64,000 nt of DNA from Clostridium sp. DL-VIII (GTDB lineage: Bacteria; Bacillota; Clostridia; Clostridiales; Clostridiaceae), in NCBI RefSeq assembly GCF_000230835.1, contig NZ_CM001240.1, forward strand, positions 5,602,279 through 5,666,278, in the 5' to 3' direction. Positions 4,137 to 58,112 of this stretch are shown piece by piece. Position 1 is the stretch's first letter, and each line of letters starts with the position of its first letter. A program made the translations under genes and the position numbers. Under the pieces are notes generated by a model, which saw only the letters and a program-made list of their open reading frames with translations, was not told the DNA's origin and made no database searches.

Positions 4137-6981
<2,845 letters not shown>

Positions 6982-8469: not shown

Positions 8470-8480
8470 TTACCATATAG

Positions 8481-8510: not shown

Positions 8511-8740
8511 CTTATATTTATTAAAATATACTACATGCTCATTGGGCTATTTTATGTACAATAATTAATGAACTACGTCTAACCTCAAATTCCATATCCA
8601 ATTTCAGTAAATTTATCACTCACTTATGATATGTTTCTCTTTTACAGATGCTAAATTTCTTAAAATCTTTACTTATAATATTATATTCTCTTATATTGTT
8701 ATGTATATAAAATATTCCTCTAAATCTATACAAACTAAAA

Positions 8741-8835
8741 CAATCCACGAAAATTCAAATTTTAGATTTTCGTGGGTTTCATGGTGGAGGCGAAGCACGA
8801 CTTTTGAAATTCACTATATTTAACTAAAATAAACC
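8741..8835 (-). repeat. tmRNA-3'-end-like terminator cassette R1
   Basis: On the minus strand the block reads GCTTCGCCTCCACCATGAAA followed by a CCCACGAAAATC/GATTTTCGTGG hairpin. The CGCCTCCACCA segment and the hairpin arms match the 3' end and terminator of the tmRNA gene (58511-58562). It lies 34 bp after the stop of the cell-wall protein gene and probably ends its transcript. Confidence 0.65.
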
Positions 8836-8868
8836 TAATTTTTCAATTGTCTCACATACATACATTAA

Positions 8869-10605: not shown

Positions 10606-10683
10606 TTTTATTTCCCCCTTGTATAATCTATCTATAACATTTGATAGAAAACCATTTATCTTGATACTGAAACTTTATTGATC

Positions 10684-12969
10684 TTATTTCTTTTGTATAA
10701 CATTTAATTCTGTATTAATAACAGTTAACAGTTCCTTTGGTATGTTAAACCTTGATCTCTTAGACATGCTGTCTATAGTCATGAGCCCCATCATAACCTT
10801 AAACTGTTGACTTTCAGCTATATCTCCAAAATATTTTATAAATACAGCTTTTGCCTGCTCATCTTTATAAAGTTCTTCAATTGTATCAAAAGTTGAATAA
10901 TGTCCTTCTTTTATAGCTACTTCTTGAACATTAGATAAATCGAATTTTTGGAACCAGTTAGTAACATGTGTTTGTTCTTCTGGTTTTTTAAGTATGTAGC
11001 TTTCATCTGCCTCTTTAACATGCTTCAAAATCATTTCATCAGTATAAATAGCTCCATTTTCATCAAAAGCCTCTGCCTTAATTTTGTTTTCTCCTAAAAC
11101 TAATTTAACTGCTTCAAATTTCTTTATTGGTTCATTGCTATTAATTTCACTTACGAATTCATTATTTACATACAGTTTAATATTATCAACATTTGAAATC
11201 ACCACTATATCATTTAACTCCTCATGCCTATTTACAAATCTGCTGCCAGCCAATTTAACAAAATGCTCCTTTGACCAATATGCTTTACAGAGATAAAAAG
11301 AATCTTTTTTTATCTTTCTGTCTATGGTTACTAGACCTTTTTGATTTCTCCCCTTTTCTCCTCCTTCATTTCTAATTTCGCTGCCAAAATCAAACATAGC
11401 CCATATATACCCGCCCAAAACAAATTCTCTCTCATTAAAAGTTTTTAGCGCATTATTTTGGAACAATAACTGATATTCTTCTGTATAATCCTTTACTGTT
11501 GGGTTATATGAATGAAGCTTAGGGTTAGTATCAACCCCGTATTCTGTAACCATAACTGGTATATTAGGTCTTGCCTTATGAAATTCATCTAATCTTTTTC
11601 CCAAGTCCTGCATTTCCTTATAATACCATCCGTAATATAAGTTATAACCTACAAAATCAGTCAATTCATTAAGCTTACTCTCATTAGCCACTGAGTGAAT
11701 ATTAGCCTGTGCTATAAATCTGTTGGAATCTAATTCTTTAGCCATAATTGCAAGTTCTTTTACCATTTCATGTATCTGTTCATTTTCTATTGCTATAGTG
11801 ATTTCATTTTGAACACCCCAGCAATAAATAGAACTATGATTATACGCCTGCTTAATTAATCTTTCTAACTGTTCCTTAGCATTTTTATTTTCCTTATCAG
11901 AAGTGGTTGGAATACTGATAAAAGGAATTTCAGCCCATACTAATATTCCCTCACGATCACAAAGGCTGTAAAAATAATCATTATGTTGATAATGAGCAAG
12001 TCTTATAGTATTTGCACCTATTTCTTTAATAATTGACATATCTAAATCCATGTGTTCTTTAGTTAAAGCATTACCAATACCTGCGAAATCCTGATGGCGG
12101 CTTACTCCATTAAACTTAATAGCTTTACCATTTAAAAATACTCCTCTATCTGGTGTTATTTCTATGGTCCTAAATCCAATTTCTATGCTTCGTTTATCAC
12201 ACATCATTTCTTCATAGTATAATTGTGCTTCAAATTTATAAAGATAAGGATTTTCTATTCCCTGCCACAATTCTGGATTATTTATTTCTTCTATTAATTC
12301 AAATTCCGAATCTTTAGATATGTTAATATTAACCGTTTTCTTAAATATTATTTTTTCTTCTTTATTTAATAATTTAAATTCAATCTTAGAAGCTTTTGTT
12401 TCTTTTAATTCATTTATGACTTTTCCATTTATTTTTAATTCAAACTTGTTCTCACAAATTCTCTTTTGAGTTAAGTATATGCCATCTCTACCGTTATCCA
12501 TTAAATCAAAGTGAAGATCATCTGCTACTACAAGGTTAACTTCACGATATATTCCTCCATAAAATGAAAAGTCAGCCATTAGTGGATATACATCGTCATG
12601 TCGACTGTTATCTACTATAATTGAAATAATGTTTTCTCCTAAATGTAAGAATGGATTTAAAAATACCCTAAACATTGAAAATCCACATTTACTGCTTCCA
12701 GCCAATTCTCCATTTACATATACTTTAGAAATAATAGCCGCGGCGCCTATTTCTAGAAATATAAATTTATTTAATTCCTTTTCTGTTATATCTAATTTTC
12801 TTTGATAACAGCATTCTCCTTTAAACATTCCCTCTCCGCTTTGCCCATCTACATCATTAAAACAATGGGGTAAAGTTACATTTTCACCTTCAGAGATTTC
12901 TTTTCCTATATATTCTTGAGTTTTTTCTTTAGTAAATATCCATTTATCATTTAAATTTATTACTTTCAC
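10684..12969 (-). CDS. GH2 family glycosidase (beta-galactosidase/glucuronidase type)
   Basis: The protein is ~760 residues: GH2 sugar-binding domain, immunoglobulin-like domain, TIM barrel and an extra C-terminal part. Counting from the upstream ATG (12984), the acid/base is Glu394 (WGVQNE) and the nucleophile Glu481 (MVTEYGVDT). The HYQHNDYFYSLCDREGILVW stretch before the barrel motif is typical. I prefer the GTG at 12969, because the ATGGAGG at 12984 is itself the Shine-Dalgarno sequence. No signal peptide is seen, so the substrate is an imported oligosaccharide or phospho-sugar. It lies downstream of the CelABC-type PTS on the same strand and may be co-transcribed through the hairpin at 13014-13036. 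Confidence 0.88.
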   Translation of the reverse strand: MKVINLNDKWIFTKEKTQEYIGKEISEGENVTLPHCFNDVDGQSGEGMFKGECCYQRKLDITEKELNKFIFLEIGAAAIISKVYVNGELAGSSKCGFSMFRVFLNPFLHLGENIISIIVDNSRHDDVYPLMADFSFYGGIYREVNLVVADDLHFDLMDNGRDGIYLTQKRICENKFELKINGKVINELKETKASKIEFKLLNKEEKIIFKKTVNINISKDSEFELIEEINNPELWQGIENPYLYKFEAQLYYEEMMCDKRSIEIGFRTIEITPDRGVFLNGKAIKFNGVSRHQDFAGIGNALTKEHMDLDMSIIKEIGANTIRLAHYQHNDYFYSLCDREGILVWAEIPFISIPTTSDKENKNAKEQLERLIKQAYNHSSIYCWGVQNEITIAIENEQIHEMVKELAIMAKELDSNRFIAQANIHSVANESKLNELTDFVGYNLYYGWYYKEMQDLGKRLDEFHKARPNIPVMVTEYGVDTNPKLHSYNPTVKDYTEEYQLLFQNNALKTFNEREFVLGGYIWAMFDFGSEIRNEGGEKGRNQKGLVTIDRKIKKDSFYLCKAYWSKEHFVKLAGSRFVNRHEELNDIVVISNVDNIKLYVNNEFVSEINSNEPIKKFEAVKLVLGENKIKAEAFDENGAIYTDEMILKHVKEADESYILKKPEEQTHVTNWFQKFDLSNVQEVAIKEGHYSTFDTIEELYKDEQAKAVFIKYFGDIAESQQFKVMMGLMTIDSMSKRSRFNIPKELLTVINTELNVIQKK

Positions 12970-43134: not shown

Positions 43135-44727
43135 TTATTTAATTATTGGAATTTTAAATAATCGTACATCCATTCCTAATTCTTTAATTCTTTTTACGTG
43201 TTGTAACAAATTAACCTTACTAAAGAATGGAATTATTTTTCTAATATCTTCACCTTTATCTGTTGATATGGCATAAACCACTATAGATTTATCGTATGGA
43301 AAATTATTTATATTATAGTTTAGATGCTTAAATTTATTATCTATTGAGCTTGTAAGTTTTTCTCTATATTCTGGAACATTTCTTAACAAATCCATAGAAA
43401 CAGATCCCTGTGCGAAAAGATGACTCAAAGTAGCTGATGATGTTTCCCTCTTCACACATACAAAATGATTTTCTTTTGAAAATAAATCACATACTTCTAT
43501 TTTACTTTTAGACTTAGGTATTTGGAAATTATCTTTATCCATTAGCATAAAATAATCGTTATTATGCCTCTCGTTATATGAACCTTCACTCTCTCCTTTT
43601 TTTATAGGATGTAAAAAACCATCATTCATTAAAGCAATCTTATTTACTTCCTCTTGAATAACCTTATAATAATTTTCTTCGATATAGTACCAATCGTTTA
43701 GTGTAAATATATATAACTTTTCTTCAAACTTGATTTCATAAACAATAAATTCCTTGATACTTACAGTTGTTGTTACTGGAGTTCCGAATTCATCCAACCC
43801 AACCACTTTTACTTTTTCATAATTTTCATATTTGTTTATATTAAGTTCATCTAAAAAATCATATAGTTTTTTTATATCTAAATCTTCAACTTCCTTATGC
43901 TTAGAATTATACATTAATTTAAAATTAGTGCATCTTTCGTATTCAATCATGTCAGGGTATGTTAGTATTACCTTTTCATCTCTATCACCAATACTTTCCC
44001 ATAAGCACATAAATAATGTATTTTTTAATTCTTTACTCTTAATTAGCTTCATATTATCTATAAAATCAAATTCCTCTTTATAATCCTCACTTTGATATAG
44101 ATCTAACAACTCTCTACATTTGTCTCCTAAAATTTCAAACCTAATATCACTATCCAAGTTCAAAGAAGCTGTTCCCCTTAAATTTTTTCCAATTTTCTCT
44201 ACCTTACTTTTTCCTGATACCAAATTAATAATATCTTGTTGAAAATCAAACTCAAACTCATCAATTCTGCTGCCTTTATTAATATGTATTCTTTTTTGTC
44301 TTGTTTTTATATCAATATTTCTCACATCCACTGCTTTTAATTCTGATGGATTAACGCAGTTCAATGTTACCTTTAGTCCAAAATCACTCTCTAACTTATC
44401 TTTATTAATCCCTGTAAATCCCATTCCACCGGTAATCCCAAAGAAATATTCATTGTCATTTTTATAAATTTTTAAAATGATTATAAATGAATTTACAGTG
44501 TTTTTTAATTCAGCCTTATCTAAAATTTCAGCATCGTTCTCTAAAAATTTTAACCATTTAGGCTCTTTTGTCTTATTCCTTTGAATAAATACCTTAGTTT
44601 CAAAGTTTAATTTTTCATTTGTTATTTTTAATTCTTCAAAATTGTTACTAGCGGTTACCTTTTTACTAATAATGGTATCCTCAAACTTCTTTACTGTGCT
44701 TTTAAATAAATAATATGTTAACTTCAC
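43135..44727 (-). CDS. DUF6119/TIGR04141-family protein, defence-associated
   Basis: A 530-residue soluble protein. Features are those of the sporadically distributed DUF6119 (TIGR04141) family: FFGITGGMGFTGINKDKLES near residue 115, FIVYEIKFEEKLYIFTLNDWYYIEE near 325 and the SATLSHLFAQGSVSMDLL motif near 425. Family members sit in defence islands, and their activity is unknown. A GTG start follows GGAGGGTGAAAA. It is the first gene of the operon with mcrB and mcrC (65-bp gap), so it may add a sensing or effector role to the McrBC system. Confidence 0.8.
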   Translation of the reverse strand: MKLTYYLFKSTVKKFEDTIISKKVTASNNFEELKITNEKLNFETKVFIQRNKTKEPKWLKFLENDAEILDKAELKNTVNSFIIILKIYKNDNEYFFGITGGMGFTGINKDKLESDFGLKVTLNCVNPSELKAVDVRNIDIKTRQKRIHINKGSRIDEFEFDFQQDIINLVSGKSKVEKIGKNLRGTASLNLDSDIRFEILGDKCRELLDLYQSEDYKEEFDFIDNMKLIKSKELKNTLFMCLWESIGDRDEKVILTYPDMIEYERCTNFKLMYNSKHKEVEDLDIKKLYDFLDELNINKYENYEKVKVVGLDEFGTPVTTTVSIKEFIVYEIKFEEKLYIFTLNDWYYIEENYYKVIQEEVNKIALMNDGFLHPIKKGESEGSYNERHNNDYFMLMDKDNFQIPKSKSKIEVCDLFSKENHFVCVKRETSSATLSHLFAQGSVSMDLLRNVPEYREKLTSSIDNKFKHLNYNINNFPYDKSIVVYAISTDKGEDIRKIIPFFSKVNLLQHVKRIKELGMDVRLFKIPIIK

Positions 44728-45079: not shown

Positions 45080-45508
45080 TTATTTATTTGCATTAAGTCT
45101 ACGTTGTTTAAAAAATGCATATAAAGTTGACGGTCTATACCAATATTTAATTATATCTAATATAGTATAATCATCTTTTTTCCACCATTTTTCATTTATT
45201 TCTGCGCCATCTACGTCCCACACAGGAATAATCATCCATTTCTTATTTCCACCATTCTGAATCTCTAAAGCTAAATCTAATACATTATTTATTATTATCT
45301 GAGATAATGGTTCATTAGGATGTGGGAAACCAAGAAACATAGCATTTATATCCATATTATATATTTCAAATAATATAATATCCTTATTATTTCGTGATTT
45401 TCCAATTATATATTTCTTATAATTTAACTTTGATTCCAATAACTTTTTATCTATTTTTTTTAAATATTTATCTATAGACATAAACATACTTATCAATTCC
45501 TTTTTCAT
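45080..45508 (-). pseudogene. Truncated M14-type zinc carboxypeptidase
   Basis: The first half of an M14 metallopeptidase. GFPHPNEPLS carries the HxxE zinc pair, and WMIIPVWDVDGAEINEKWW the conserved strand and Asn/Arg region. M14 domains need a third zinc ligand (His) and a catalytic Glu over 100 residues later; the frame ends at 142 residues, right at repeat R6. An internal ATG (MFMSIDKYL) has a better ribosome site than the first. It is 14 bp after the ThiF-like gene, so it once belonged to that peptide locus, perhaps for maturation or immunity. The 3' part is gone. Confidence 0.65.
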
Positions 45509-45522
45509 AAATTTTAACCTAA

Positions 45523-46578
45523 TTATTTGCTACATATGGTACATTCATTATTTTTGTGCCATGGTGTTAGTTCCATTTTAAAATTAATTAAATCAACCAT
45601 TAGTGTTGATCCAATTAATTTCGAATCAGTAAAACCTGAAATATATTTTATTATTTCTGATGTAGCTATACTAGCAATGCAATTACAAAGTGGTCCAAAT
45701 GATGGAATTATTCTATCTGAATTTATAGACATATCATTAATATTCTTATTAATATTCTTATTAATACTACTATCAATACATTTTAAACATGCAGTTTTAT
45801 GAGGAATGATAAATGGTCCAATCATACCAACATATTCAGAAAATCCTGCAAAAAGAATAGATTTATCATTTCTAACGCATACGTTATTTACTATATTCCT
45901 AGTTGGCTTATCCATTGTACATAATACTAAATCGCATTCTTTAATTATTGGTTCTAAGTTATCTTCATTATTTATATATATATTAATAGTTTTTATATCT
46001 GCATTTAAATTAACTTCTAATAAATTTCTTTTTGCTGCATCTGTCTTTAAACTACCAACATCACTATTTTTAAATAATAATTGTCTATGCAGATTTGTAT
46101 ATTCTACTGTATCTGAATCAACTAATGTTAATTTATTTATGCCTGCTTTTATAAGTTGATTTGCTACATTACATCCTATTGCTCCAACTCCTAAAATAAC
46201 TATTCTCTTCTCTTTCATTACTTTTATCATACTAGTAGCTTTGGAAAAACTATTGAACATAGAAAAAAATAATACCTGCCTATTAAATAATTCATTGTGT
46301 AATATATCACAGTAATCAGAATAATCAACCAAATATCTTTCATTTAGTAGACAATTAACTGTCTCATTAATGTTCTGTCTATCAATTCTACTTTCTAAAA
46401 CACACAAATTTATCAATTTATTAACATCAACAGGCTTTATACACTGTTTCAATAAAAATATTAAATTTTTATCAATTCCTTCTATTATTTTTCCTGTTAC
46501 TGGCAAATTACCAAGACGTATGCCATCATGATTTTTATCTATATGCAAAGGTAAAGTTGGATTTATAATTACTTTCAT
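45523..46578 (-). CDS. ThiF/MccB-like peptide-adenylating E1 enzyme
   Basis: A 351-residue protein. Residues 1-100 look like the peptide-clamp/RRE-like domain found before ThiF domains in MccB-type enzymes. The E1-like domain follows: nucleotide motif ILGVGAIGCNVANQLIKAG (about 131-149), DSDTVEYTNLHRQLLF, and the zinc pairs CLKC (about 268) and CTIC (about 346). MccB and relatives adenylate the C-terminus of a short peptide. A 21-residue peptide gene lies 83 bp upstream, with a terminator-like hairpin between them. GAGAAATTAAT precedes the ATG. Confidence 0.85.
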   Translation of the reverse strand: MKVIINPTLPLHIDKNHDGIRLGNLPVTGKIIEGIDKNLIFLLKQCIKPVDVNKLINLCVLESRIDRQNINETVNCLLNERYLVDYSDYCDILHNELFNRQVLFFSMFNSFSKATSMIKVMKEKRIVILGVGAIGCNVANQLIKAGINKLTLVDSDTVEYTNLHRQLLFKNSDVGSLKTDAAKRNLLEVNLNADIKTINIYINNEDNLEPIIKECDLVLCTMDKPTRNIVNNVCVRNDKSILFAGFSEYVGMIGPFIIPHKTACLKCIDSSINKNINKNINDMSINSDRIIPSFGPLCNCIASIATSEIIKYISGFTDSKLIGSTLMVDLINFKMELTPWHKNNECTICSK

Positions 46579-46614
46579 ATTAATTTCTCCTTTATACTAC
46601 CTATCAATATTAAA

Positions 46615-46651
46615 AATCAACAGGCAATACTCAAATTACCTGTTGATTTTC
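46615..46651 (-). terminator. Attenuator hairpin after the short peptide gene
   Basis: AATCAACAGGTAAT pairs with ATTGCCTGTTGATT on the minus strand and is followed by TTTAATA. Partial terminators between a precursor peptide and its modifying enzyme are typical of RiPP operons, giving more peptide than enzyme. Confidence 0.75.
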
Positions 46652-46660
46652 AAACATTGA

Positions 46661-46726
46661 CTAACAGTTTTGATCTACATGACATGTAGTTTGTACATTT
46701 TCTACTTTTTTAACTGATATCTTCAT
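46661..46726 (-). CDS. Short peptide (21 aa), candidate RiPP precursor
   Basis: ATG preceded by AAGGAAGGTGAAATT starts a 21-codon gene. The peptide begins MKISVKKVENVQ and ends TTCHVDQNC, with two cysteines in the last seven residues. It is followed by an attenuator hairpin and the ThiF/MccB-like gene, and lies on the strand of the ABC exporter upstream. This is the layout of microcin C-type loci, but those peptides end in Asn, while this one ends in Cys. It is therefore probably the substrate of a related but different modification. Confidence 0.75.
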   Translation of the reverse strand: MKISVKKVENVQTTCHVDQNC

Positions 46727-47044: not shown

Positions 47045-48622
47045 TTACACATATATTTTTTTATTAACTAATTTCTTATATATGATTGCTGATATTATTG
47101 TAATTATAATAATAGTTAAAATTGAAATTATTAAATTGTATTTATTAAAAGCTAAATATAAAACCATTGGAATAAATGCTGAAGCTATCCCTATGCCCAT
47201 CACAATCAAAACTGATATCGAACCTTTTACTGCATTATATTCGCTAGTCCAATCGTATCTACAAAATTTCACATCCATACCCATTCCTAATATAGAAATA
47301 TAAAATGCATAAGCAATAGGAATTATAAATATAAATATACTTTCTATAAAGCTTGAATCTAATGCAATGCATTGTAATATAGAACTTACTACTATAACTG
47401 GCAAAGTAGTTGTTAAGTTTACTGCAATCTTTGACTTAAAAATTTGTTTAGAACTTACTGGTAAAGAAGCCATTATCCAACGACTTTTTCCTTCTAAAGA
47501 TAATGCTACTGAGGTCGTAGATGATAATCCAACCAATAACGCACTAATAAATGGAGCTGCTTTTATACCAGAATCATAAATTAATTTCATTTGGCCTGCC
47601 AATTGTAAATTAACTTTACCTATAATCAACAGTGCTATTGAAGTTATAATTAACAAAACTAAACATATTGAAGAATTAAGTGCGTAGATTGTACATGACA
47701 AAAACCTTCTAAGTTCTTTTTTATACATAGCCATAAATACAGAATTCTTTTTTATTTCACCTAACTTAAAGTTACTTTTTGATCCATTAGAAGAAACAGC
47801 TGTATTAATTTTAGTATAATAATTCGCTAATATCATTACAAATATTCCAGCTATACTTACTGAAATAATTGAATATGCTCCAAAATGAAACCAACTACCT
47901 TTTAAAAGTGCAGTTGTAATTATATATGCTAAAGGATATATATGATTTATTAGATTAGCTATAGTTATTCCAATAGTCTCTATCGCCACTTCTCCTTGCG
48001 CCTCAAAAATTCCCAATACGATGATAAATACAAGAACTACTAATGTACTAAATATTAAAGATAATATATTCTTATTTTTAAATTTACTAGAAAAAATTGT
48101 GATTACTGTACTCAATGCTATTGCAATAATCATAGGAATTAACGGAGACAAAAATAATGTAAATAATATCATAATATAAAAAGAAATAGGTTCATTTAAT
48201 AAATTTCCAAAAAATATACTAGCTGGTGCAAGTGCAATAACCCCAATAAGAATATTGAGTATATACACACTAGTTAAACGACTTAAAACTACTTGTGTAC
48301 TAGTTACTGGCAAAGACATAACCATATCATAGTCATTAACACCAAAGAGCATATTACTACCTTTAATAAAAGTAAAAAATAAAGTAATTAAAAATGAAAT
48401 TGTTAGCATAAAGGATGGTAAAATATCAATAAGTCCTAACCTTATGCAAGTTCTAACAAATAAAGTGCTATATACCAACATAAATGCAAATAATATAAGT
48501 GAAAAGCTCCCTATAAACACTATATGATTTCTTTCTTTTTTTACTTTACTATGAATCATTCTGTTAATGCCAAACAAATTATAAAGTTGCATCTTAGTTA
48601 AAAGTGTATATCTACCTTTCAT
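47045..48622 (-). CDS. ABC exporter permease (ABC-2 type)
   Basis: A 525-residue membrane protein with about twelve hydrophobic segments in two halves. The VNDYDMVMSLPVTSTQVVLS and EGKSRWIMASLPVSSKQIFK segments mark each half, as in multi-drug/peptide ABC-2 exporters. It overlaps the ATPase gene by 4 bp (ATGA). It lies between the two peptide loci and is a likely exporter or self-protection pump for one or both products. Confidence 0.85.
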   Translation of the reverse strand: MKGRYTLLTKMQLYNLFGINRMIHSKVKKERNHIVFIGSFSLILFAFMLVYSTLFVRTCIRLGLIDILPSFMLTISFLITLFFTFIKGSNMLFGVNDYDMVMSLPVTSTQVVLSRLTSVYILNILIGVIALAPASIFFGNLLNEPISFYIMILFTLFLSPLIPMIIAIALSTVITIFSSKFKNKNILSLIFSTLVVLVFIIVLGIFEAQGEVAIETIGITIANLINHIYPLAYIITTALLKGSWFHFGAYSIISVSIAGIFVMILANYYTKINTAVSSNGSKSNFKLGEIKKNSVFMAMYKKELRRFLSCTIYALNSSICLVLLIITSIALLIIGKVNLQLAGQMKLIYDSGIKAAPFISALLVGLSSTTSVALSLEGKSRWIMASLPVSSKQIFKSKIAVNLTTTLPVIVVSSILQCIALDSSFIESIFIFIIPIAYAFYISILGMGMDVKFCRYDWTSEYNAVKGSISVLIVMGIGIASAFIPMVLYLAFNKYNLIISILTIIIITIISAIIYKKLVNKKIYV

Positions 48623-49341
48623 TTTTCTTCCTCCTTTAGGAAAATTTCTTCAAGGCTATCATTCCCTAAAATTTCCTCAGTATTTCCATTTAACACTTGT
48701 TTACCTTGTTTTATTATTACAATTTTATTACAAAGCTTTTCTGCAACATCTAGCACATGAGTTGAGAAAAAAATTGCACTTCCCTCTGCACATAATTCTT
48801 TCATCATATTTTTTAATTGAAACGCTGCTTTAGGATCAAGCCCTACAAACGGCTCATCTAGAAGTAATAACTTTGGTTTGTGTAAAAACGCAGCAATTAT
48901 AGCAAGTTTCTGCTTCATCCCATGAGAATATGAACTAATTAAATCACCAAGATTTTTAGTTATTTCAAATAAATCTGAATATTTTTCAATCCTCTTCTTT
49001 CTAATTTCTATATCTACATTAAACATATCTCCAATATAATTTAAATATTGAATACCTGTAACATATTCATATAAATCAGGATTATCCGGAATATATGCTA
49101 AAACAGATTTACATGCTATAGGATCTTCTTTTATTGAATTGCCATTTATCAGTATTTCACCCTTTTCAAAGTCCAGTACTCCCACCACGGACCTAATTGT
49201 AGTTGTTTTTCCTGCTCCATTATGCCCTATAAAACCATAAATATCTCCTGATTCAACTATTAAATTAAAATTTGATACTGCCTCTTTGTTCTTTAAATAC
49301 ATTTTTGAAAAATTCTTAATTTCCAAAATTTCATTCTTCAT
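48619..49341 (-). CDS. ABC exporter ATP-binding protein
   Basis: A 240-residue ATPase with Walker A GHNGAGKTT (about 38-46), the signature SSYSHGMKQKL, Walker B LLLLDEPFVGLDP and the H-loop STHV. It pairs with the permease at 47045. A GGAGGGTATT ribosome binding site precedes the ATG. Its neighbours on both sides are peptide-modification genes. Confidence 0.94.
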   Translation of the reverse strand: MKNEILEIKNFSKMYLKNKEAVSNFNLIVESGDIYGFIGHNGAGKTTTIRSVVGVLDFEKGEILINGNSIKEDPIACKSVLAYIPDNPDLYEYVTGIQYLNYIGDMFNVDIEIRKKRIEKYSDLFEITKNLGDLISSYSHGMKQKLAIIAAFLHKPKLLLLDEPFVGLDPKAAFQLKNMMKELCAEGSAIFFSTHVLDVAEKLCNKIVIIKQGKQVLNGNTEEILGNDSLEEIFLKEEEK

Positions 49342-49530: not shown

Positions 49531-50337
49531 TTAGATAATATTGGAAAGTATAAATATTACTCCTATATGTAATGGATAAAATATATAGAATAGAAACTTT
49601 AATCCTTTTCCTTTTTCTCCATTATATAATAATAAAAATGGTACTGTAATTATCATTATCCATTGATAATTTACAAAAAATAAATTACTCATAGTCATTC
49701 CTATAAGCGCTGTACTAGTAAATTCAAATAACGAATATAAACAATACATAATTGTAAGTTTCTTTTTGTTACTTCTAAATAAATACATTCCCACTCCTAA
49801 TATAATCCATTGAAAGCCACCATCACAATAAATAAAATTAGGTAAAAAATTTGTGATGCACTCACACTTTGATGTATATTCAATCAATGAGCTTTGACTT
49901 AAAGTATTAAGTTGATTAATTGGTATAAATAAAATTGTTATTATATATCCTATGATAGTTTGAGTTAGTATAAAACCTACAAATGCTATTATCTTCTTTT
50001 TAACAGATAATCCAGAATTAATTATGTATATAAAAACTCCTATTATAAATAATGTTGCAAACATTGAATTCATCAAAGGTTGTTGAGAATTTGGAAATAT
50101 ATTCATTAAAATTATTTCTTCAATTCCTAACACAACTGAAGCCGCATACAAACGAATTATATATTTTTTTCTGGCACTTGTATGAATCATCCCTTGAACT
50201 AAACAAAATATAAATATTGGTGCTGCCATTCTACCAATCCATCTAAATTCTATTGGAAATATATCTGGCATATACATATTTAAATGATCAAGTACCATAA
50301 AACAAAGTGCTAATATCTTTAAAACAAATATATTCAT
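49531..50337 (-). CDS. TraX-family membrane protein
   Basis: A 268-residue protein with about eight membrane segments. The N-terminal motif LKILALCFMVLDHLNMYMPD with IEFRWIGRMAAPIFIFCLVQG is the TraX signature. In F plasmid, TraX N-acetylates pilin; chromosomal relatives are proposed acyltransferases of unknown target. Here it stands between the radical SAM cluster and the ABC exporter on the same strand, so acylation of a peptide product is possible but not shown. Confidence 0.88.
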   Translation of the reverse strand: MNIFVLKILALCFMVLDHLNMYMPDIFPIEFRWIGRMAAPIFIFCLVQGMIHTSARKKYIIRLYAASVVLGIEEIILMNIFPNSQQPLMNSMFATLFIIGVFIYIINSGLSVKKKIIAFVGFILTQTIIGYIITILFIPINQLNTLSQSSLIEYTSKCECITNFLPNFIYCDGGFQWIILGVGMYLFRSNKKKLTIMYCLYSLFEFTSTALIGMTMSNLFFVNYQWIMIITVPFLLLYNGEKGKGLKFLFYIFYPLHIGVIFILSNII

Positions 50338-50556: not shown

Positions 50557-51930
50557 TTATTCAAGTTCCAACTTCTTAAAAAGCACTAGAGAATGGCTCA
50601 ATTTTGTTAATTTTATAATACGTTCTTCAACTCTTTTTACTTCATCCTTTGAAATCTTAGGATGTACTTTGTAAAATATTTCTTTACTACTAACCCATAA
50701 AGGATCATCATATATTGTCTCATCCACATCAATGTTATATTTTTCTCTTTGACTCCATAAATCTGATGGTAACATTAAAAGCCAATTTAAATTACAAACT
50801 ACTTTATACCTTTGAGCTATATATTGAACAGTATCTAATGTCTTATTAATATCTGCTTCATCCTCCCATGGGAATCCAATTATGAAAGATAAGAAAATCT
50901 TATTTGCAAAACTAGTTATATGCATAATTTCAAGTGATTTACAAAGCTGTGCTACTGTAATGCCTTTTCCTACTAACTTAAGTCCCTCATCATATCCACA
51001 TTCAACCCCAATTTGCATTCCAGAAATCATATCTTTAGGAATATTATAAAATAAATCGCCTTTAATAATATTCGATACCCTAACTTCTATAAAGTACTTT
51101 ATTTTTGTTCCATATTTCTCAAATAATCTATGAAATATTTTAGCTGCTCTTTTCGTATCTATCGAAAAACAATCATCTACAAATAAAACGTGGTCAATAT
51201 CTTCTAAATTTATTATATTCTCCACTAAGTTATCAACCCTATCAACTACGTTTTCAGGCGAATACCCTCTCCAATTATTCCTATGTGGAATTGAACAAAA
51301 TACGCAACTAAATGCACATCCTCTTGAGGATTCAACCGGGTAAACTTTATATACTCCTTTTTGATACATCAATGAATAATCTGGCTGTTCACAAGTTTCT
51401 AGGAATTCTACTGGCAAACTTTTCGCTGATTTATTTATCTTGATCCTACCATTTTTTTTATATGACAGATTTTCTATATAATCTAGTGATTCACCTTTTT
51501 CTAGACAGCTTACTAGCTCAGGAAATGTCTTTTCACCTTCACCTCTCATAACAAAATGTGCCCCTGTTGTATTTAGTGCATATTCATCAAAAATTGTTGG
51601 ATGCAAACCACCTAATGCTATTAATAAATTAGGGAATTCCTTTGATAAATTATTAATAATTATTTTTGATATTCCCCAATTAAATGTATTAACTGAAAAT
51701 GCTACCAAATCTATACCCTCAAGCTTTTCTGATAATAACTCAAAACTTTTTTGTGGTAGCTCCTCTTCTCCATTAAGCTCTAGATATTCAGAAGGATCTA
51801 CAATTTTCACATTGTTACCAGCATGTCTTAAAACAGTCTCTAAAACATATAAAGCCATTGGAGGTGCTTCCCAAAGTTCAAATTTTTTTTTTGCAACCAT
51901 TGCTGGAACAAAAGTTAATAAAATATTCAT
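50557..51930 (-). CDS. Cobalamin-dependent radical SAM enzyme (B)
   Basis: A 457-residue enzyme. The N-terminal B12-binding domain (1-150) has APPMALYVLETVLRHAG and LIALGGLHPTIFDEYAL. The radical SAM domain has the cluster motif CAFSCVFC (about 205-212) with the following SIPHRNNWRGYSPENVV. A C-terminal part contains FLSFIIGFPWEDEAD. Such enzymes often methylate unreactive carbon. The ATG at 51930 follows GGAGGAAAAT. It is a paralogue of the enzyme at 54849. It is the last gene of the peptide cluster; the 219-bp gap below it holds nothing recognisable. Confidence 0.88.
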   Translation of the reverse strand: MNILLTFVPAMVAKKKFELWEAPPMALYVLETVLRHAGNNVKIVDPSEYLELNGEEELPQKSFELLSEKLEGIDLVAFSVNTFNWGISKIIINNLSKEFPNLLIALGGLHPTIFDEYALNTTGAHFVMRGEGEKTFPELVSCLEKGESLDYIENLSYKKNGRIKINKSAKSLPVEFLETCEQPDYSLMYQKGVYKVYPVESSRGCAFSCVFCSIPHRNNWRGYSPENVVDRVDNLVENIINLEDIDHVLFVDDCFSIDTKRAAKIFHRLFEKYGTKIKYFIEVRVSNIIKGDLFYNIPKDMISGMQIGVECGYDEGLKLVGKGITVAQLCKSLEIMHITSFANKIFLSFIIGFPWEDEADINKTLDTVQYIAQRYKVVCNLNWLLMLPSDLWSQREKYNIDVDETIYDDPLWVSSKEIFYKVHPKISKDEVKRVEERIIKLTKLSHSLVLFKKLELE

Positions 51931-51959
51931 ATTTTCCTCCAATCTCTAAGTAGTCTTTA

Positions 51960-52808
51960 CTAGTATTTGATTAACTTTTCCATAATTATATTTCTTCCCT
52001 TATTACATTGATTTTTACTAAATCCTAATGAACTAAGGAAATCTATTTTTCCATTTTCACTTGACAACTCTATTTGGAAAAACAATCTATCAGTTCTTGC
52101 TTTTAAGCTATTAAGGTTAATAAATGTCATACTCCATTTTAATAATTCTCCTAAGTTTTCTTTTACAAATTCTATATCATCATCTAAAATGAGAATATAT
52201 TCTATATTAAAGCCTAAAAGTTCTTTACCTGTTAGATAAGAGTATACTGGTGTATATGCTATTGAAAATTTTAACTTGTCATTATCATAACAATCAAAAT
52301 ATAATGTTCCTAAAAATTTAATTCCTTTTTCTAAATAAGGTTTACTAAACTTAACAAGTTTATTATAATGAGAATTAAATATATATCTACTATGCTCATC
52401 TTTTAATCTTTTAATTATTTCTTGAAATATTGGAACTTTATACTCAACACCTATCTTAGGGGAATACATATATAAAGAACTAAAAATATTTTTCTTATCC
52501 TTCCACTCAACTACCGTATTATTCCATAACTCATAAAAAGTTATTAGAATATCATTTTTCAAATTAATCTTTTCAACATCATATATATTAAATAGTATAT
52601 CTATAATTTCGCTTATTGAATTTTCTCCATTACAATATTTTAGAATTTCATAAGCAACCTCACTTAAGTAAATAACATCATAATTAGATAAAACTAATTG
52701 ATAGTTACAATTCTTTTCATCAACTACAATTTTTTCCTTTTGAAATATAGGATAATAATTATTTAAATCTTTATCTTTTAACTTATCTAAAAATTGCTTA
52801 TATTCCAT
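51960..52808 (-). CDS. PqqD-like (RRE) protein with unknown C-terminal domain
   Basis: A 282-residue protein. Residues 10-100 match the PqqD/RRE pattern: PIFQKEKIVVDEKN, then YDVIYLSEVAYEILKYCNGE and NSISEIIDILFNIYDVE. RREs bind the leader of a precursor peptide and present it to enzymes. The rest (about 100-282) is an unrecognised alpha/beta region. The stop of the upstream gene and this start overlap (TAATG). The precursor here has the Y-x-x-P leader motif that such domains bind. Confidence 0.7.
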   Translation of the reverse strand: MEYKQFLDKLKDKDLNNYYPIFQKEKIVVDEKNCNYQLVLSNYDVIYLSEVAYEILKYCNGENSISEIIDILFNIYDVEKINLKNDILITFYELWNNTVVEWKDKKNIFSSLYMYSPKIGVEYKVPIFQEIIKRLKDEHSRYIFNSHYNKLVKFSKPYLEKGIKFLGTLYFDCYDNDKLKFSIAYTPVYSYLTGKELLGFNIEYILILDDDIEFVKENLGELLKWSMTFINLNSLKARTDRLFFQIELSSENGKIDFLSSLGFSKNQCNKGRNIIMEKLIKY

Positions 52809-53302
52809 TAACGCTCCTCCCTTTCATAATATAATCTATATAATATCCTATTATTTTCTTCTTTATTACTATTGATAACTAAATCCTTTTCAAATCCAAT
52901 GCCTTTTATATTATCTAAATTTATCTTATCACTTTGGCAGTTTAAGATATCTAATTTAATACGTGACCATGAATAAAAAGAATATTCCTTTTTTATTTTG
53001 TTGATTGTATCAGATAAAAACTTTATATTTTTCGTATTAAACGCCCAAATGGTAATTTCACTTTCATCCTCTTCCAATTCAGGAACTTTGTATATTATAA
53101 AGTCAGCATTCTCCTCTTTCCCATCCTTAAAAATTAAAATTTTATAATCAAATAGTAATCTTCTAAGACTGGTTTCATCAAATGACTTTAAATCCATTTC
53201 AAAACTAATAAAATAGTCATCATTTTTTTCTAATTTTTTTGATTTTATTAACTTGAAAGCTTCTTCTACCTCTGAATATTGCACTACTTCAATATCTTCC
53301 AT
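52808..53302 (-). CDS. Unknown small protein of the radical SAM cluster
   Basis: A ~164-residue soluble protein without a clear family. Alternating strands and helices (YFISFEMDLKSFDETSLRRL, EITIWAFNTKNIKFL) and the tail GIGFEKDLVI ... ILYRLYYER faintly recall a GNAT-type acyltransferase, but no acetyl-CoA loop is visible. The ATG at 53302 has a GGTGAG site and lies 5 bp after the radical SAM stop codon. It overlaps the PqqD-like gene by one base pair set. Tight coupling shows it is part of the pathway. Confidence 0.6.
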   Translation of the reverse strand: MEDIEVVQYSEVEEAFKLIKSKKLEKNDDYFISFEMDLKSFDETSLRRLLFDYKILIFKDGKEENADFIIYKVPELEEDESEITIWAFNTKNIKFLSDTINKIKKEYSFYSWSRIKLDILNCQSDKINLDNIKGIGFEKDLVINSNKEENNRILYRLYYEREER

Positions 53303-53307
53303 TATTC

Positions 53308-54333
53308 TCACCACCCCAACTCTAACAGTAATTTCTTTGTTTTTTCTTCATAGTTATCATTTAATAAATCCAAATCTATATTTTTATCAAGGTAAATTTC
53401 AGGTAATCCAATACGACTTAAATCCATATCATCTACTGAATGAATTTTAGATATAATAGCTTTTAAAAATTCATTATCCCATACATCTTTTAATCCAGCA
53501 TCCATATATTGTTTTATAGAAGCTTTCTTTACATTTCCAAATGCTATTGGTAAATATGGTGATATTAAAATATCTCCATATGCATTAACTGCAACATGAA
53601 TGTTAGATTTTTTTACTCCATCAATAAATCTTAAGTGCTCTAATGGATCTCCCCATTCAATGGTAAAGTTTTGATTTATATATTGAATCTTCTTTTTATC
53701 TAATATACTTTTATATTTAATAAAGCCATTATAATCTAAAAGATAATCATTTAAATTTTTCTTAGCTCTTCCTAAAGACATAGCTGGCTGTATCCTAAAA
53801 TTTGAAATTCCCAAATTATATGCGTTATCTATAGCATTGCCCAGATCTTTTATATTTTTTTCCGTTGGAACAAATGCAGTTTCCACATTAATTCCATTTT
53901 TAACCAAATTATCAACTGCTTGTATTGCTCTTTCATAACTTCCTGGCATATTTCTCATCCAATCATGTTCTTCAGAGTTAGCGCCATCAATACTAATTTG
54001 TACACTTTTTATACCATTCTCAGCTAAATTGTAAGCCACTTCTTCATCTATTAGATACCCATTAGATACTAGGGCTACATTTATTTGATCATTATAATTT
54101 TTAACAGTTTTCCCCACTTTGTAAACAATATCTTTTCTTAGAAGTGCTTCTCCACCACAACAACATAAAGAATCGACTCCCAATTCTAAAAATTCATTAA
54201 CATTTTTTATTATTTGGTCTTCTGTCATTTCTATTAAACCATTATTATGTTCACCACTTGAATTAAAACAGTGTTTACATCTAAAATTACATTTATATGT
54301 TATATCAATTTGTGCCGATTTAATTAACTTCAT
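53308..54333 (-). CDS. Radical SAM peptide-modifying enzyme, SPASM-like tail lacking cysteines
   Basis: A 341-residue radical SAM protein. The cluster motif is CNFRCKHC (residues 15-22), with CCCGGEALL as the SAM-binding GGE motif. The C-terminal part (VNAYGDILISPYLPIAFGNV) has the layout of a SPASM/twitch domain, but the cysteines that hold the auxiliary Fe-S cluster are absent. It lies directly after the precursor gene with only a stem-loop between. Close relatives act on ribosomal peptides (PqqE/sactisynthase type). The missing auxiliary cluster suggests a changed mechanism or a leader-handling role. Confidence 0.8.
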   Translation of the reverse strand: MKLIKSAQIDITYKCNFRCKHCFNSSGEHNNGLIEMTEDQIIKNVNEFLELGVDSLCCCGGEALLRKDIVYKVGKTVKNYNDQINVALVSNGYLIDEEVAYNLAENGIKSVQISIDGANSEEHDWMRNMPGSYERAIQAVDNLVKNGINVETAFVPTEKNIKDLGNAIDNAYNLGISNFRIQPAMSLGRAKKNLNDYLLDYNGFIKYKSILDKKKIQYINQNFTIEWGDPLEHLRFIDGVKKSNIHVAVNAYGDILISPYLPIAFGNVKKASIKQYMDAGLKDVWDNEFLKAIISKIHSVDDMDLSRIGLPEIYLDKNIDLDLLNDNYEEKTKKLLLELGW

Positions 54334-54372
54334 GTAAATTCACCTCATAACTTCAAAATTACTATATATCCC

Positions 54373-54405
54373 CTATACATCCAAATAATAACTTTGGATG
54401 TATAG
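54373..54405 (-). other. Stem-loop between precursor and radical SAM gene
   Basis: CTATACATCCAAA and TTTGGATGTATAG are exact complements (13 bp) around a 7-nt loop, 15 bp after the precursor stop codon. No T tract follows on the minus strand. It probably protects the short precursor mRNA or reduces read-through, a common device in RiPP operons. Confidence 0.7.
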
Positions 54406-54420
54406 AGAATATACTCTACA

Positions 54421-54537
54421 TTAGTCTGGTGCAACAACTGCAGCAACAACTACAACGACTGCAACAAGTCCAGCTTCATGAACTCTTTCTTCGCCTAAAT
54501 GTGTTACTACAGGCTTTTCATATTTCTTTTTTTGCAT
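54421..54537 (-). CDS. RiPP precursor peptide (38 aa) with Val/Ala core
   Basis: ATG after a perfect AAAGGAGGTGATAATT site starts a 38-codon gene. The leader begins MQKKKYEKPVVTHLGEE; Y6-x-x-P9 and L14-G15 match the leader motif recognised by PqqD-like RRE proteins. The last 16 residues are GLVAVVVVVAAVVAPD: eight Val and four Ala, no Cys, Ser or Thr. The gene is surrounded by three radical SAM enzymes, two of them cobalamin-dependent. Bottromycin and polytheonamide enzymes of that class convert Val to tert-leucine, so C-methylation of these valines is the leading hypothesis. Confidence 0.85.
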   Translation of the reverse strand: MQKKKYEKPVVTHLGEERVHEAGLVAVVVVVAAVVAPD

Positions 54538-54848
54538 AATTATCACCTCCTTTCCATTTTTTAGGACTAATCATATTTCTTAACCCTTATATATCAAGAC
54601 CTTTAAGACCTAAATTTTTTATATCACTCAAATCTCCTAGTATCTTTTATACCTCTTTGGAAACAACAGGCACTGATTATAGATCCAATTTTAATGAAAC
54701 CTCAGATTACTTTAAGTTTTTTTATTCAATGAGAACCGAATATGAACATTATAATTCTCTAATCTGTATTCACTTTTAAAAGATCAATTATACTCATCTA
54801 TATATATTTTTTGTCTATCCAATGATTTATCATTTGTTATATTTATTA
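54538..54848. other. Intergenic region upstream of the precursor gene
   Basis: This 311-bp AT-rich space between the first cobalamin enzyme and the precursor holds no gene. It is large for an operon gap and probably contains a separate promoter for the precursor, though I could not fix -35/-10 boxes with confidence. Confidence 0.35.
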
Positions 54849-56204
54849 TTATCCATTAAATAGACAAATGCCTCGTTCTTCATATTGCTTTAAATAATCA
54901 AATATAAAATCTCTAGCATATCGGTTGACCCTAGGATGAGTTCTCTTAAAAATATATAAATCAGTACTAAAGTTATGATTGTCATAAACGCTTTCATCCA
55001 AATCTATACCATACTTCATTCTTTCTTCCCATATTTGTGATGGGAATATCTTTAACCAATTCAAATTTACATTTTTATATCTAAATCTTTCTACAATGCT
55101 TGCTGCATAATCAATAGTCTGAATATAATTATCTACAGTTTCCCATGGGAATCCTATAATAAATGAAAAATACACTTTTTTCATTAAATCATACTTTTCA
55201 AATAGTTTAATTTTTTCTTCTAGCAATTCTATTGTTAAACCTTTATTAATTGCTTTTAAGCCTTCATTATAGCCACATTCAACTCCAATGGCCACTCTTG
55301 TAATTTGTGGATAACTTAGTAGTTCAATTAATTTTTCATTTTTCAAGTCAGATGCTCTTGCTTCAATAGTTAATCTAATATCTTTGTTATTTTCAAATAT
55401 ATGTTGTAAAATCTTAATTGCTCTATCATTATCAACTGTAAAGCAATCGTCTACGATATATACATATGGATGCAAAAAATTTTTCTTATACTTATGTACT
55501 ATTTTTAATACACGTTCAGCAGCCCAATCAGCATCATAACCAACCCAATTATGCTTATGCGGTATTGAGCAGAATCTACAACCATATCTACATCCCCTTG
55601 ATGTCTCTATAGGAATTATCCCATACACATCTTTAGGTACATAAGAAAAATTAGGATACGGTAACTCTTTTATCTCTTCTCTATCTAATCTTTCTGCTTC
55701 TCCATTTTTAACAATTTGACCACCCTCTTTCCAGACAAGGCCTAACACATTCGCATATTCTCCATTCGTTTCAATTGTATTAACTAACTTAAGCAATGAT
55801 TTTTCACCATCACCAGCTAGTACAAAATCTGCTTTTGTACTAGCCAATACATATTTATAGAAATAAGTTGGATGTAAACCTCCTACTACGATTTTTTTAT
55901 TAGGGTAAATTTTTTTAATCACTTTTATAGCTATTACAGTCATAGACCAATTGAAAGTATTGCTTGAAATTGACACTAAATCTGTGTTTTTCAATCTCTT
56001 CTTAAAAAAATCAATTAGCTTTTCACAATTCTCATCCTCAACTGGATTTAGTTTCCTTATATAGAATGGATCAATTATGTCAACTTCATGACCATTTATA
56101 CGTAAAATTTCTCCCAACAAGTATATTGCTGTTGGTGGTATAATTGCCATACCAGGCTTGTCTACCTTGTGATAAACAGGCATACTAATTACCGTTACTT
56201 TCAT
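54849..56204 (-). CDS. Cobalamin-dependent radical SAM enzyme (A)
   Basis: A 451-residue enzyme and paralogue of the one at 50557. B12-binding domain in 1-150 (KPGMAIIPPTAIYLLGEILR, KKIVVGGLHPTYFYKYVL); radical SAM motif CRYGCRFC followed by SIPHKHNWVGYDADW; C-terminal YFSFIIGFPWETVDN and WLKIFPSQIWEERMKYGID. It is the first gene of the peptide cluster. The start is uncertain: ATG at 56204 or TTG at 56210, while the AAGGAGG site (56236-56246) lies about 30 bp away. An IS66 element begins 80 bp upstream and may have displaced the native promoter. Confidence 0.87.
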   Translation of the reverse strand: MKVTVISMPVYHKVDKPGMAIIPPTAIYLLGEILRINGHEVDIIDPFYIRKLNPVEDENCEKLIDFFKKRLKNTDLVSISSNTFNWSMTVIAIKVIKKIYPNKKIVVGGLHPTYFYKYVLASTKADFVLAGDGEKSLLKLVNTIETNGEYANVLGLVWKEGGQIVKNGEAERLDREEIKELPYPNFSYVPKDVYGIIPIETSRGCRYGCRFCSIPHKHNWVGYDADWAAERVLKIVHKYKKNFLHPYVYIVDDCFTVDNDRAIKILQHIFENNKDIRLTIEARASDLKNEKLIELLSYPQITRVAIGVECGYNEGLKAINKGLTIELLEEKIKLFEKYDLMKKVYFSFIIGFPWETVDNYIQTIDYAASIVERFRYKNVNLNWLKIFPSQIWEERMKYGIDLDESVYDNHNFSTDLYIFKRTHPRVNRYARDFIFDYLKQYEERGICLFNG

Positions 56205-56289
56205 ATACAATTCAAGATATTTATAAAATAATATCCTTTCCTCCTTAATAGTGAATTTATTGTATTTTTTAACCTTTTATAAAAATTCT

Positions 56290-58112
56290 GTAACTATTCA
56301 GCTACTTACAATTACATACTTACATAATAATAAAATAAAGTAAATATTTATAGAATAAAACGCATAAAAACATACATAAATGGAAATAATTAATAATTCT
56401 ATTCTATTTGTAACTATTCAGCTATTAAAGAATTTTAATATAAGTGGTATTATTAATTTCTAAAAACCCTTTCTATTATCATTAGTTTTTGTTATTATAA
56501 ACACATCTTGTATAAACTAATGATAAGGTGGTGACTTTCGTGAGCGAAGGCAAAATCATTGAAATCTATAACAAAGGAATATCTGAGGTTATAGGTTTGA
56601 TTAAAGAACTATCCAATCAAATAAAGGAACAAAGTGCAAATATAGATCAGCTTTCTAAGGAAAATAAAGCTTTAAATGAGCGTGTCAAATCGTTAGAAAA
56701 TCAAGTTAATAAAAATAGTAATAATAGTAGCAAACCACCATCGTCAGATGGTTTCAAAAAGAAAACTAAAAGTCTAAGAACTAAATCTGGTAAAACTCCA
56801 GGTGGTCAGAAAGGTCATGAAGGTAAAACTCTTGAACTTAGTGATAATCCAGATGAAATAATAATACATATAGTAGATAAATGTGATATTTGTGGAGAAT
56901 CCTTACAGGATGTATCTCCGGAAAGACACATTATTCGCCAAGTTGTGGACATACCAGAAATAAAAGTTAAAGTTACTGAGCATAGAGCCGAAGTGAAAAA
57001 ATGTCCAAAGTGTAGAAGAAAAAATACCGGTAAATTCCCTGATGGAATAACTAATAGTTTTCAATATGGAGAGAAAGTAAAAGCTGTATCAGTTTATTTA
57101 ACTCAATATCAGCTGATTCCATATAAAAGGGGTTCAGAATTAATTTTTGATATGTTTGGTATTAACTTAAGTCAAGGAACAATGGTTAATTTTAATGATT
57201 ATTGCCATGAGAACTTAAAAACCGTTGAGGACAATATAAAAAACTCAATAATTAATTCTCAAGGTGCTGTTCATTTTGATGAAACTGGAATATCTATAGA
57301 TAAAAAACGTCAATGGCTCCACGTAGCTTCCAATGATAGATATACATATTATGAAGCACATCAAAAACGTGGTAAAGAAGCAGTTGATGATATAAATATT
57401 CTATCTAATTTTACCGGAACAGCAGTTCACGACTGCTGGAAGACTTATCACCAATATTCTAATTGTGATCATGCCTTATGCAACGCTCACATTTTAAGAG
57501 AGTTAAATGGTATATCTGAGTTAGAAAAACAACAATGGGCAGAACCAATGAAAAATCTATTGATAGAAATAAAAAAAGAAGTAAATTTATCTTGGAATAC
57601 AGCCAATGCTTTAACCTTAGATAAAATTGAAACCTTTGAAAAAAGATATGCTAACGTACTAGCAGATGGCTTCAAAGAAGATTATATTGCAAATAGTGAG
57701 TCATACTCCAAAGAGAAATCTAAGAAAAGTACTAGCCTTAATCTACTTAATAGATTAAGTAAATATAAAGACCAAATACTTGCCTTTATGTATGACTTTG
57801 ATATACCTTTTGATAATAATCTTGCAGAGCGAGACCTGCGCATGACTAAAGTTAAACAAAAAATCTCTGGAACATTTAGAAGTAAAGATGGTGCAAAAGC
57901 ATTTACTAGAATTCGTGGATATGTATCCACTGTTCGAAAAAATGGATTAAACGCTCTAGATTGTATAAAATCAGCATTTACTTCAAATATTCTAGATCCG
58001 ACCTTAGTGTAACTAAGATATTTTCATGGGGTATTAGTTAAGTTGATACACTTATTTGTCATATCTAAAATTATACTTACTAAAAATTAAATTACTAGAG
58101 CTGAATAGTTAC
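56290..58112 (+). mobile_element. IS66-family insertion sequence, complete
   Basis: The 1823-bp element starts GTAACTATTCAGCT and ends with the exact complement AGCTGAATAGTTAC. It is flanked on both sides by the same 8 bp, AAAATTCT (56282-56289 and 58113-58120). IS66 elements have GTAA ends and 8-bp target duplications, so the limits are secure. An extra internal copy of the left repeat lies at 56409-56423. There is a single transposase gene and no tnpA/tnpB, as in the ISBst12 subgroup. The perfect duplication implies a recent insertion. Confidence 0.93.
56540..58012 (+). CDS. IS66-family transposase (TnpC)
   Basis: A ~490-residue transposase. N-terminal coiled coil (about 15-60) with NNSSKPPSSDG, then a zinc-ribbon-like region (CDICGESL ... 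CPKCRRK), then the DDE domain. It includes HFDETGISI, VHDCWKTYHQYSNCDHALCN, AHILREL and FDNNLAERDLRMTK. I start it at GTG 56540, 8 nt after AAGGTGG; in-frame GTG codons at 56528 and 56531 lie inside that site. Intact and likely functional. Confidence 0.93.
   Translation: MSEGKIIEIYNKGISEVIGLIKELSNQIKEQSANIDQLSKENKALNERVKSLENQVNKNSNNSSKPPSSDGFKKKTKSLRTKSGKTPGGQKGHEGKTLELSDNPDEIIIHIVDKCDICGESLQDVSPERHIIRQVVDIPEIKVKVTEHRAEVKKCPKCRRKNTGKFPDGITNSFQYGEKVKAVSVYLTQYQLIPYKRGSELIFDMFGINLSQGTMVNFNDYCHENLKTVEDNIKNSIINSQGAVHFDETGISIDKKRQWLHVASNDRYTYYEAHQKRGKEAVDDINILSNFTGTAVHDCWKTYHQYSNCDHALCNAHILRELNGISELEKQQWAEPMKNLLIEIKKEVNLSWNTANALTLDKIETFEKRYANVLADGFKEDYIANSESYSKEKSKKSTSLNLLNRLSKYKDQILAFMYDFDIPFDNNLAERDLRMTKVKQKISGTFRSKDGAKAFTRIRGYVSTVRKNGLNALDCIKSAFTSNILDPTLV

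Follow-up and report, generated by a model that had tools for sequence, protein, structure and literature searches.

A rare clostridial gene cluster with a short, valine-rich YxxP precursor and three radical SAM enzymes, possibly a new kind of modified peptide pathway

Organization of the cluster

The stretch of DNA analyzed here (the window, 64,000 nucleotides of Clostridium sp. DL-VIII; contig NZ_CM001240.1, positions 5,602,279 to 5,666,278) contains a cluster of six genes, all on the minus strand, where a first-pass annotation had placed them (50557..56210 region). The data support a pathway for a ribosomally synthesized and post-translationally modified peptide (RiPP) whose small precursor is conserved and whose core is very hydrophobic, and a radical S-adenosylmethionine (SAM) enzyme with a C-x-C-GGE motif may epimerize the Val and Ala residues of that core. 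The features are listed below; related loci are designated by L and a number.

54849..56204, minus strand: B12-radical SAM enzyme 'a' (P0002, 451 aa); Pfam B12-binding and Radical_SAM above cut-off
54570..54597, minus strand: weak promoter-like site ahead of the precursor gene; TTGATA-16-TATGAT, 10/12 matches
54421..54537, minus strand: precursor peptide (P0001, 38 aa); ATG start, KKKYEKP leader, EAG, then a Val/Ala-rich tail
54345..54415, minus strand: hairpin between the precursor and radical SAM genes; minimum free energy -29.5 kcal/mol, z -6.17
53308..54333, minus strand: radical SAM enzyme with C-x-C-GGE motif (P0004, 341 aa); proposed to act on C-alpha, probably an epimerase
52808..53302, minus strand: 164-aa protein, fold unassigned (P0005); counterpart in L009 31% identical
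51960..52808, minus strand: predicted fusion of a RiPP recognition element (RRE) with a GCN5-related N-acetyltransferase (GNAT) fold (P0006, 282 aa); Pfam PqqD above cut-off
50557..51930, minus strand: B12-radical SAM enzyme 'b' (P0003, 457 aa); Pfam B12-binding and Radical_SAM above cut-off
49534..50337, minus strand: TraX-like membrane protein, probable cluster member; Pfam TraX 2.1e-23
47048..49341, minus strand: ATP-binding cassette (ABC) ATPase and permease, possible exporter or immunity pair, membership uncertain; similar to L008 neighbours

The ATG starts at 56204 (P0002) and 51930 (P0003) were preferable to the TTG starts. Three radical SAM enzymes, two of them with a B12-binding domain, had been annotated in the first pass, and the Pfam scan agreed: Radical_SAM was above cut-off in P0002, P0003, and P0004, and B12-binding in P0002 (9.7e-12) and P0003 (1e-11). 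The tight coupling described there applied to the radical SAM, 164-aa, RRE-GNAT, and B12 'b' genes (5-nt gap, 1-nt overlap, and 29-nt gap), but not to the B12 'a' gene and the precursor, which lie 311 nt apart, or to the 87 nt between the precursor and the radical SAM gene. This last interval contains the strong hairpin, a possible attenuator or processing site, which the pattern scan did not score as a terminator and which was present at the same place in L009 (Blautia caecimuris; z -4.00). The promoter-like site is only suggestive, because the number of sites of this quality (61) was near that expected from shuffles (56.6).

Precursor peptide and its conservation

A ribosome site, GGAGGTG, lies a few bases 5' of the P0001 ATG, and 12 of the final 16 residues of the peptide are Val or Ala. 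This Val/Ala-dominated end of a 38-residue precursor, already recognized in the first-pass annotation, was rare in comparison with chance: at least 12 Val/Ala in the last 16 residues was found in only 1 of 364 start-to-stop open reading frames (ORFs; 25-150 aa) of the window and in none from 60 random windows (first-order Markov model). P0001 contains no cysteine, and the proposed core no Lys. It matched no Pfam or NCBIfam family (NCBIfam results for window proteins, here and below, cover the best 25 of 85 matches).

The same seven genes, including the precursor and TraX-like genes, were found in the same order in L009, a 7.2-kb contig of B. caecimuris, with identities of 54% (B12 'a'), 53% (radical SAM), 31% (164-aa), 28% (PqqD-type), 53% (B12 'b'), and 45.5% (TraX-like). 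The L009 precursor (L009:1688-1810) retained Y-E-x-P and E-A-G, followed by a tail of Val/Ile/Ala/Gly; its BLASTP similarity to P0001 was modest (9/24 identical, E 0.019). The short gene, whose loss from otherwise conserved clusters would according to the first pass have refuted its reading, was kept between orthologues in B. caecimuris.

The cluster is real, conserved, and rare. Prevalence searches returned only its own genome in the genus (n=68) and in the order (n=225), and 3 of 391 genomes in the class, its own counted; in the family of B. caecimuris, the query genome stood alone among 397. The third-enzyme profile A6 found 3/397 genomes (query genome included) and 3/391 (own genome and G266 included). 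A single-sequence scan of genome contigs with P0002 gave 18 stretches with no relative among them, and searches of plasmids (E 1e-60) and viral contigs gave no matches. The alignment-based scan for the B12 enzyme, with one genome per species, gave 35 loci, while L061, L062, and L073 were found by the third-enzyme profile alone; L062 and L073 had the expected precursor and L061 did not.

A YxxP peptide was present near a P0004-type enzyme in 12 of 13 loci (the window, L008, L009, L010, L012, L013, L016, L023, L024, L029, L062, and L073); none was recognized in L061. The tails were long and rich in Val/Ala/Gly in L010, L012, L062, and L073, consisted of Val/Ala strictly alternating with Asn in L008, L023, and L024, and were aromatic in L013 and L029; L016 had two precursor copies with a Val/Ala-rich middle and a Tyr/Gln/Thr end. 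Only the Y and P of YxxP were invariant in 11 aligned precursors. In the 113.5 kb lying within 5 kb of a C-x-C-GGE enzyme, 10 Val/Ala-rich ORFs with YxxP were counted, against 3 in the other 468.5 kb (a tandem pair in L035 and one in L043); this count is descriptive, as the rule was set after the precursors had been seen and the B12 search had supplied most of the loci, and it does not take in L016, which was recognized by eye, or the later L073.

In L035, of a Thermoflexales assembly, the tandem precursors (L035:5753-5962 and 6140-6349) are YESP-led and Ala-rich and lie near a distant B12 enzyme, with no C-x-C-GGE enzyme. At L014:3118-5736, a 'b'-clade B12 enzyme and two radical SAM enzymes that carry TGGE adjoin three precursors; their long leaders end with GG, and their tails are rich in Val and Gly, one of them being almost pure Val/Ala/Gly. 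By-eye labels of Nif11 for the L014 leaders and NHLP for those of L019, L021, L026, and L030 were dropped, as the Pfam matches were weak and below cut-off (L_biotic_typeA, Bacteriocin_IIc, and Frankia_peptide; L030 lay outside the scan). L061:3800-15600 encodes a P0004-type enzyme, an RRE-GNAT-like protein, and an L008-type methyltransferase amid acyl-carrier-protein and ligase-like genes. L007 was set aside: it has a related B12 enzyme but no Val-rich or YxxP precursor. Its region 5500-12600 holds two radical SAM enzymes, one with C-x-S-GGE, a PqqD-like protein, a degenerate radical SAM-like protein, the B12 enzyme, a methyltransferase, and an ABC pair, with no recognized precursor.

B12-radical SAM enzymes

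Two B12-radical SAM enzymes adjoin the Val-rich tail, and PoyC C-methylates Val (PMC5682303); the main product could then be a poly-C-methylated (tert-leucine) peptide made by this pair, with only a minor role for the third radical SAM enzyme. However, the cluster motif of P0002 and P0003 is Cx3Cx2C, where Cx7Cx2C, the motif given for PoyB/PoyC and the bottromycin methylases in the same source, would be expected. The RiPP C-methyltransferase model TIGR03975 gave 69.1 and 69.7 bits, far under its cut-off of 281.85. In the comparison of profile A4 with the PDB, CysS and the methyltransferase TokK were matched, but the best match was OxsB, which is not known to methylate, ahead of the radical SAM protein 9ccb, CysS, and TokK. 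Moreover, the three loci found by the third-enzyme profile alone had no B12 relative in the stretches read (16, 12, and 20 kb), so B12 chemistry looks accessory within the wider group. The comparison with the bottromycin and polytheonamide pathways, from which the first-pass annotation drew C-methylation of Val, is weakened, and its placing of the B12 pair at the center gave these enzymes too much weight. We regard a chiefly poly-C-methylated product as unlikely; methylation of the peptide by the B12 enzymes is nevertheless plausible, and as it is compatible with epimerization, both may occur.

In a tree of 28 rows, window 'a' grouped with L009 'a' (100/99) and then with L010 and L012 (100/99), and window 'b' with L009 'b' (100/99) and then with L013, L029, L014, and L011 (99/95). 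Since 'a' and 'b' are old paralogues kept together, they are probably not redundant.

The C-x-C-GGE radical SAM enzyme

The third radical SAM enzyme, P0004, has a feature that was overlooked in the first pass, as was the likelihood of C-alpha chemistry. The C-x-C-GGE motif was present in 12/12 distinct loci (L023 and L024 being near-identical) but in 0/12 other radical SAM ORFs of the same loci; L073 has two copies of the enzyme, one with C-x-C and the other with C-x-S. The cysteines of P0004 are only those at 15, 19, 22, 57, 58, and 59, namely the cluster triad and C57-C59, and no auxiliary-cluster (SPASM-type) cysteines were conserved in the P0004-type enzyme. Its closest solved relative was SkfB, both by sequence and by fold. 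A PoyD-type epimerase was absent among the best 25 of 85 NCBIfam matches, no direct comparison with PoyD having been made.

Reviews state that sactisynthases and epimerases both abstract a C-alpha hydrogen, after which a substrate cysteine leads to a thioether and an enzyme cysteine to a D-residue, and that in proteusin epimerases a single cluster is accompanied by a critical cysteine. Because the core contains no cysteine, while P0004 has conserved cysteines beside the SAM-binding GGE, we infer epimerization.

Alternatively, the third enzyme might convert Val to cyclopropylglycine or a dehydro residue, as do TvgB/TigE, with which it shares an association with Val-rich peptides (Val/Ile-rich repeats in TvgB/TigE). 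This is improbable: the TvgB subfamily is reported to bind up to three clusters, whereas P0004 has six cysteines in all and none for auxiliary clusters; the window precursor contains no TVGG or other repeats; and TigE ranked far below SkfB.

The RRE-GNAT and 164-aa proteins

The PqqD-like protein of the first-pass annotation was present: P0006 gave a Pfam PqqD match (27.6 bits versus a cut-off of 23.4), as did 9/9 family members, but this label had hidden a fusion. In a structure model of P0006 (pLDDT 69.1), residues 18-109 best matched lasso-peptide RREs with bound leaders, and residues 117-282 matched GNAT folds. The sequence profile agreed weakly (PqqD 6.9e-5; acetyltransferase 2eui 4.8e-4). 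In the model, P0006 thus joins an RRE to a GNAT-like fold. Leaders with YxxP occur in lasso peptides (PMC12710340), and the YxxP leader and lasso-like RRE fit each other. BLASTP of P0006 against its L008 counterpart gave no significant match; the two are linked instead by alignment A7 and the PqqD matches.

A GNAT-fold maturase in a RiPP cluster is also found with selidamides, and the RRE-GNAT protein might acetylate or fatty-acylate the peptide to yield a related lipopeptide or N-capped peptide. However, a catalytic GNAT is doubtful, since the acyl-CoA motif pattern [QR]xx[GA]x[GA] was absent in 7/9 family members; in the remaining two it occurred only near the domain start or earlier. In addition, the alignment of nine rows had a single invariant column, and the confidence of the model is modest. 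We hold acylation to be quite unlikely, and a non-catalytic GNAT scaffold would be just as probable. The selidamide GNAT is a separate acyltransferase that modifies Lys/ornithine in proteusin-type precursors.

P0005 matched nothing in NCBIfam or Pfam and, to E 5, no PDB sequence; it also showed no similarity to the L008 pseudo-radical SAM protein or to alignment A7. Among the loci read, only L009 contained a counterpart.

Proposed pathway and comparison with known systems

An encoded precursor conserved beside modifying enzymes, together with a leader-binding RRE (PqqD match and RRE fold), argues for a RiPP pathway. The short, very hydrophobic product put forward in the first pass therefore stands as a RiPP with a conserved precursor and hydrophobic core; its C-methylated valines are no more than plausible. 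We propose that the RRE half of P0006 would bind the YxxP leader and place the Val/Ala tail within reach of the C-x-C-GGE enzyme. This enzyme would abstract C-alpha hydrogens from Val and Ala; one of the two non-cluster cysteines would return a hydrogen from the opposite face to give D-residues. The two B12-radical SAM enzymes would then add changes, most likely C-methylation, at different positions, and the tail from about EAG onward would be released and exported. No protease gene was found. The product would be a short peptide of extreme hydrophobicity, with D-blocks or alternating D and L residues, that probably acts in membranes.

The chemistry throughout is predicted, and epimerization is the most important and least certain step. 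Three points weigh against the pathway: C57/C59 may tune the cluster or bind a metal instead of donating hydrogen; Cys223 of EpeE is at a different place from C57/C59; and relatives of the B12 enzymes also lie in surroundings resembling those of polyketide and non-ribosomal peptide synthetases (L015 and L017, judged by similarity and gene sizes), which leaves a peptide substrate uncertain. We hold the pathway as a whole, from RRE presentation through C-alpha epimerization and B12 decoration to a membrane-active product, only tentatively, at slightly less than even chances. That the short ORF is spurious or encodes an unmodified hydrophobic peptide is very improbable: it is only 38 aa long, has no database family, and resembles the Blautia peptide modestly in its leader, but it follows a ribosome site, its position, YExP...EAG layout, and hydrophobic tail are kept in the syntenic cluster despite enzyme identities of only ~53%, and the expected precursor type occurred in two of the three loci found through the enzyme alone.

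The core of about 15-17 residues after EAG is similar in length to linear gramicidins. Length and composition recall these peptides, and the product, though not a proteusin, would behave like polytheonamide or a ribosomally made gramicidin; gramicidin and polytheonamide channels share alternating D/L residues (PMC8183687). The polytheonamide/aeronamide proteusins share with the window the hydrophobic Val/Ala core, a radical SAM enzyme without auxiliary clusters, and B12-radical SAM enzymes; relatives of the window cluster also resemble them in alternating Asn and a methyltransferase. They differ in that the window precursor is 38 aa in all, with no long NHLP/Nif11-type leader, the B12 enzymes have Cx3Cx2C, the RRE is a separate protein fused to a GNAT fold and not part of the epimerase, and the third enzyme is nearest to SkfB. 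Epipeptides (EpeX/EpeE) likewise come from a small Firmicute cluster with a radical SAM enzyme acting on hydrophobic residues and a proposed cysteine hydrogen donor, but EpeE has a second cluster and Cys223, neither of which P0004 has in the same place, and the leader and RRE differ. SkfB is separated from P0004 by T-x-T-GGE in place of C-x-C-GGE, and sactipeptides by a cysteine-free window precursor and an enzyme without auxiliary-cluster cysteines. Lasso peptides share the YxxP leader and the closest RRE fold, but no transglutaminase-like protease or asparagine-synthetase-like cyclase was present among the identified cluster genes; no lasso protease or macrolactam synthetase was found in the scanned cluster genes and neighbours, nor in L009, which was judged by similarity to window proteins only.

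The cluster falls within the radical SAM RiPPs, a known kind, and may point to a new class. An undescribed class in Clostridia and at least one Planctomycetota assembly is conceivable but doubtful: as a ribosomal counterpart of the linear gramicidins, it would use an RRE-GNAT protein and a single-cluster C-x-C-GGE epimerase to make a D/L beta-helical membrane channel from a short peptide with a YxxP leader and a Val/Ala or Val/Asn core. B12 enzymes or an N-methyltransferase would be optional additions. If so, the same core logic would occur with at least three leader types, namely YxxP, GG-type (L014), and long leaders beside related B12 enzymes. No published description of this peptide or enzyme set was found, which is weak evidence of novelty given that most subscription journals lay outside the coverage.

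Flanking genes

The TraX-like gene (49534-50337) probably belongs to the cluster; TraX-like proteins were found in 2/24 other relatives searched. The downstream ABC pair may export or protect. Its ATPase is 56% identical to that beside L008 and its permease 22%, but permease homologues were present in 9/24 other relatives, whereas the B12 enzyme was found in the genus only in its own genome. Firm membership was dropped because the transporter is common in relatives, leaving the pair a possible member. An IS66-type transposase (56528-58009, plus strand) directly adjoins the cluster, and this neighbour, together with the absence of the cluster from other searched members of the genus, suggests horizontal acquisition.

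A second tiny candidate peptide cluster lies downstream (45083-46726, minus strand). Its 21-aa ORF (46661-46726) has a ribosome site and encodes two cysteines; the other members are a ThiF-type protein (45526-46578; Pfam 5.9e-51) and a 142-aa ORF with no Pfam match and an HPNEP stretch, peptidase-like by eye only. A DUF6119 protein (43138-44727; Pfam 2.1e-136) is encoded just past the ThiF gene.

Implications

The first-pass annotation picked the right object but overweighted its B12 enzymes. The C-x-C-GGE pair offers a clean mutational handle on the hydrogen-donor site of a peptide epimerase without auxiliary clusters, and the RRE-GNAT fusion could be used as a search handle for the class. 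If the proposed pathway is true, beta-helical or otherwise hypermodified poly-Val peptides are also made outside the large proteusin pathways known from sponge symbionts and cyanobacteria, and a compact five-enzyme set suffices, in cultivable Clostridia (B. caecimuris DSM 29492 is a named strain). The related clusters point to a so far undescribed peptide family whose members are very hydrophobic and perhaps insert into membranes.

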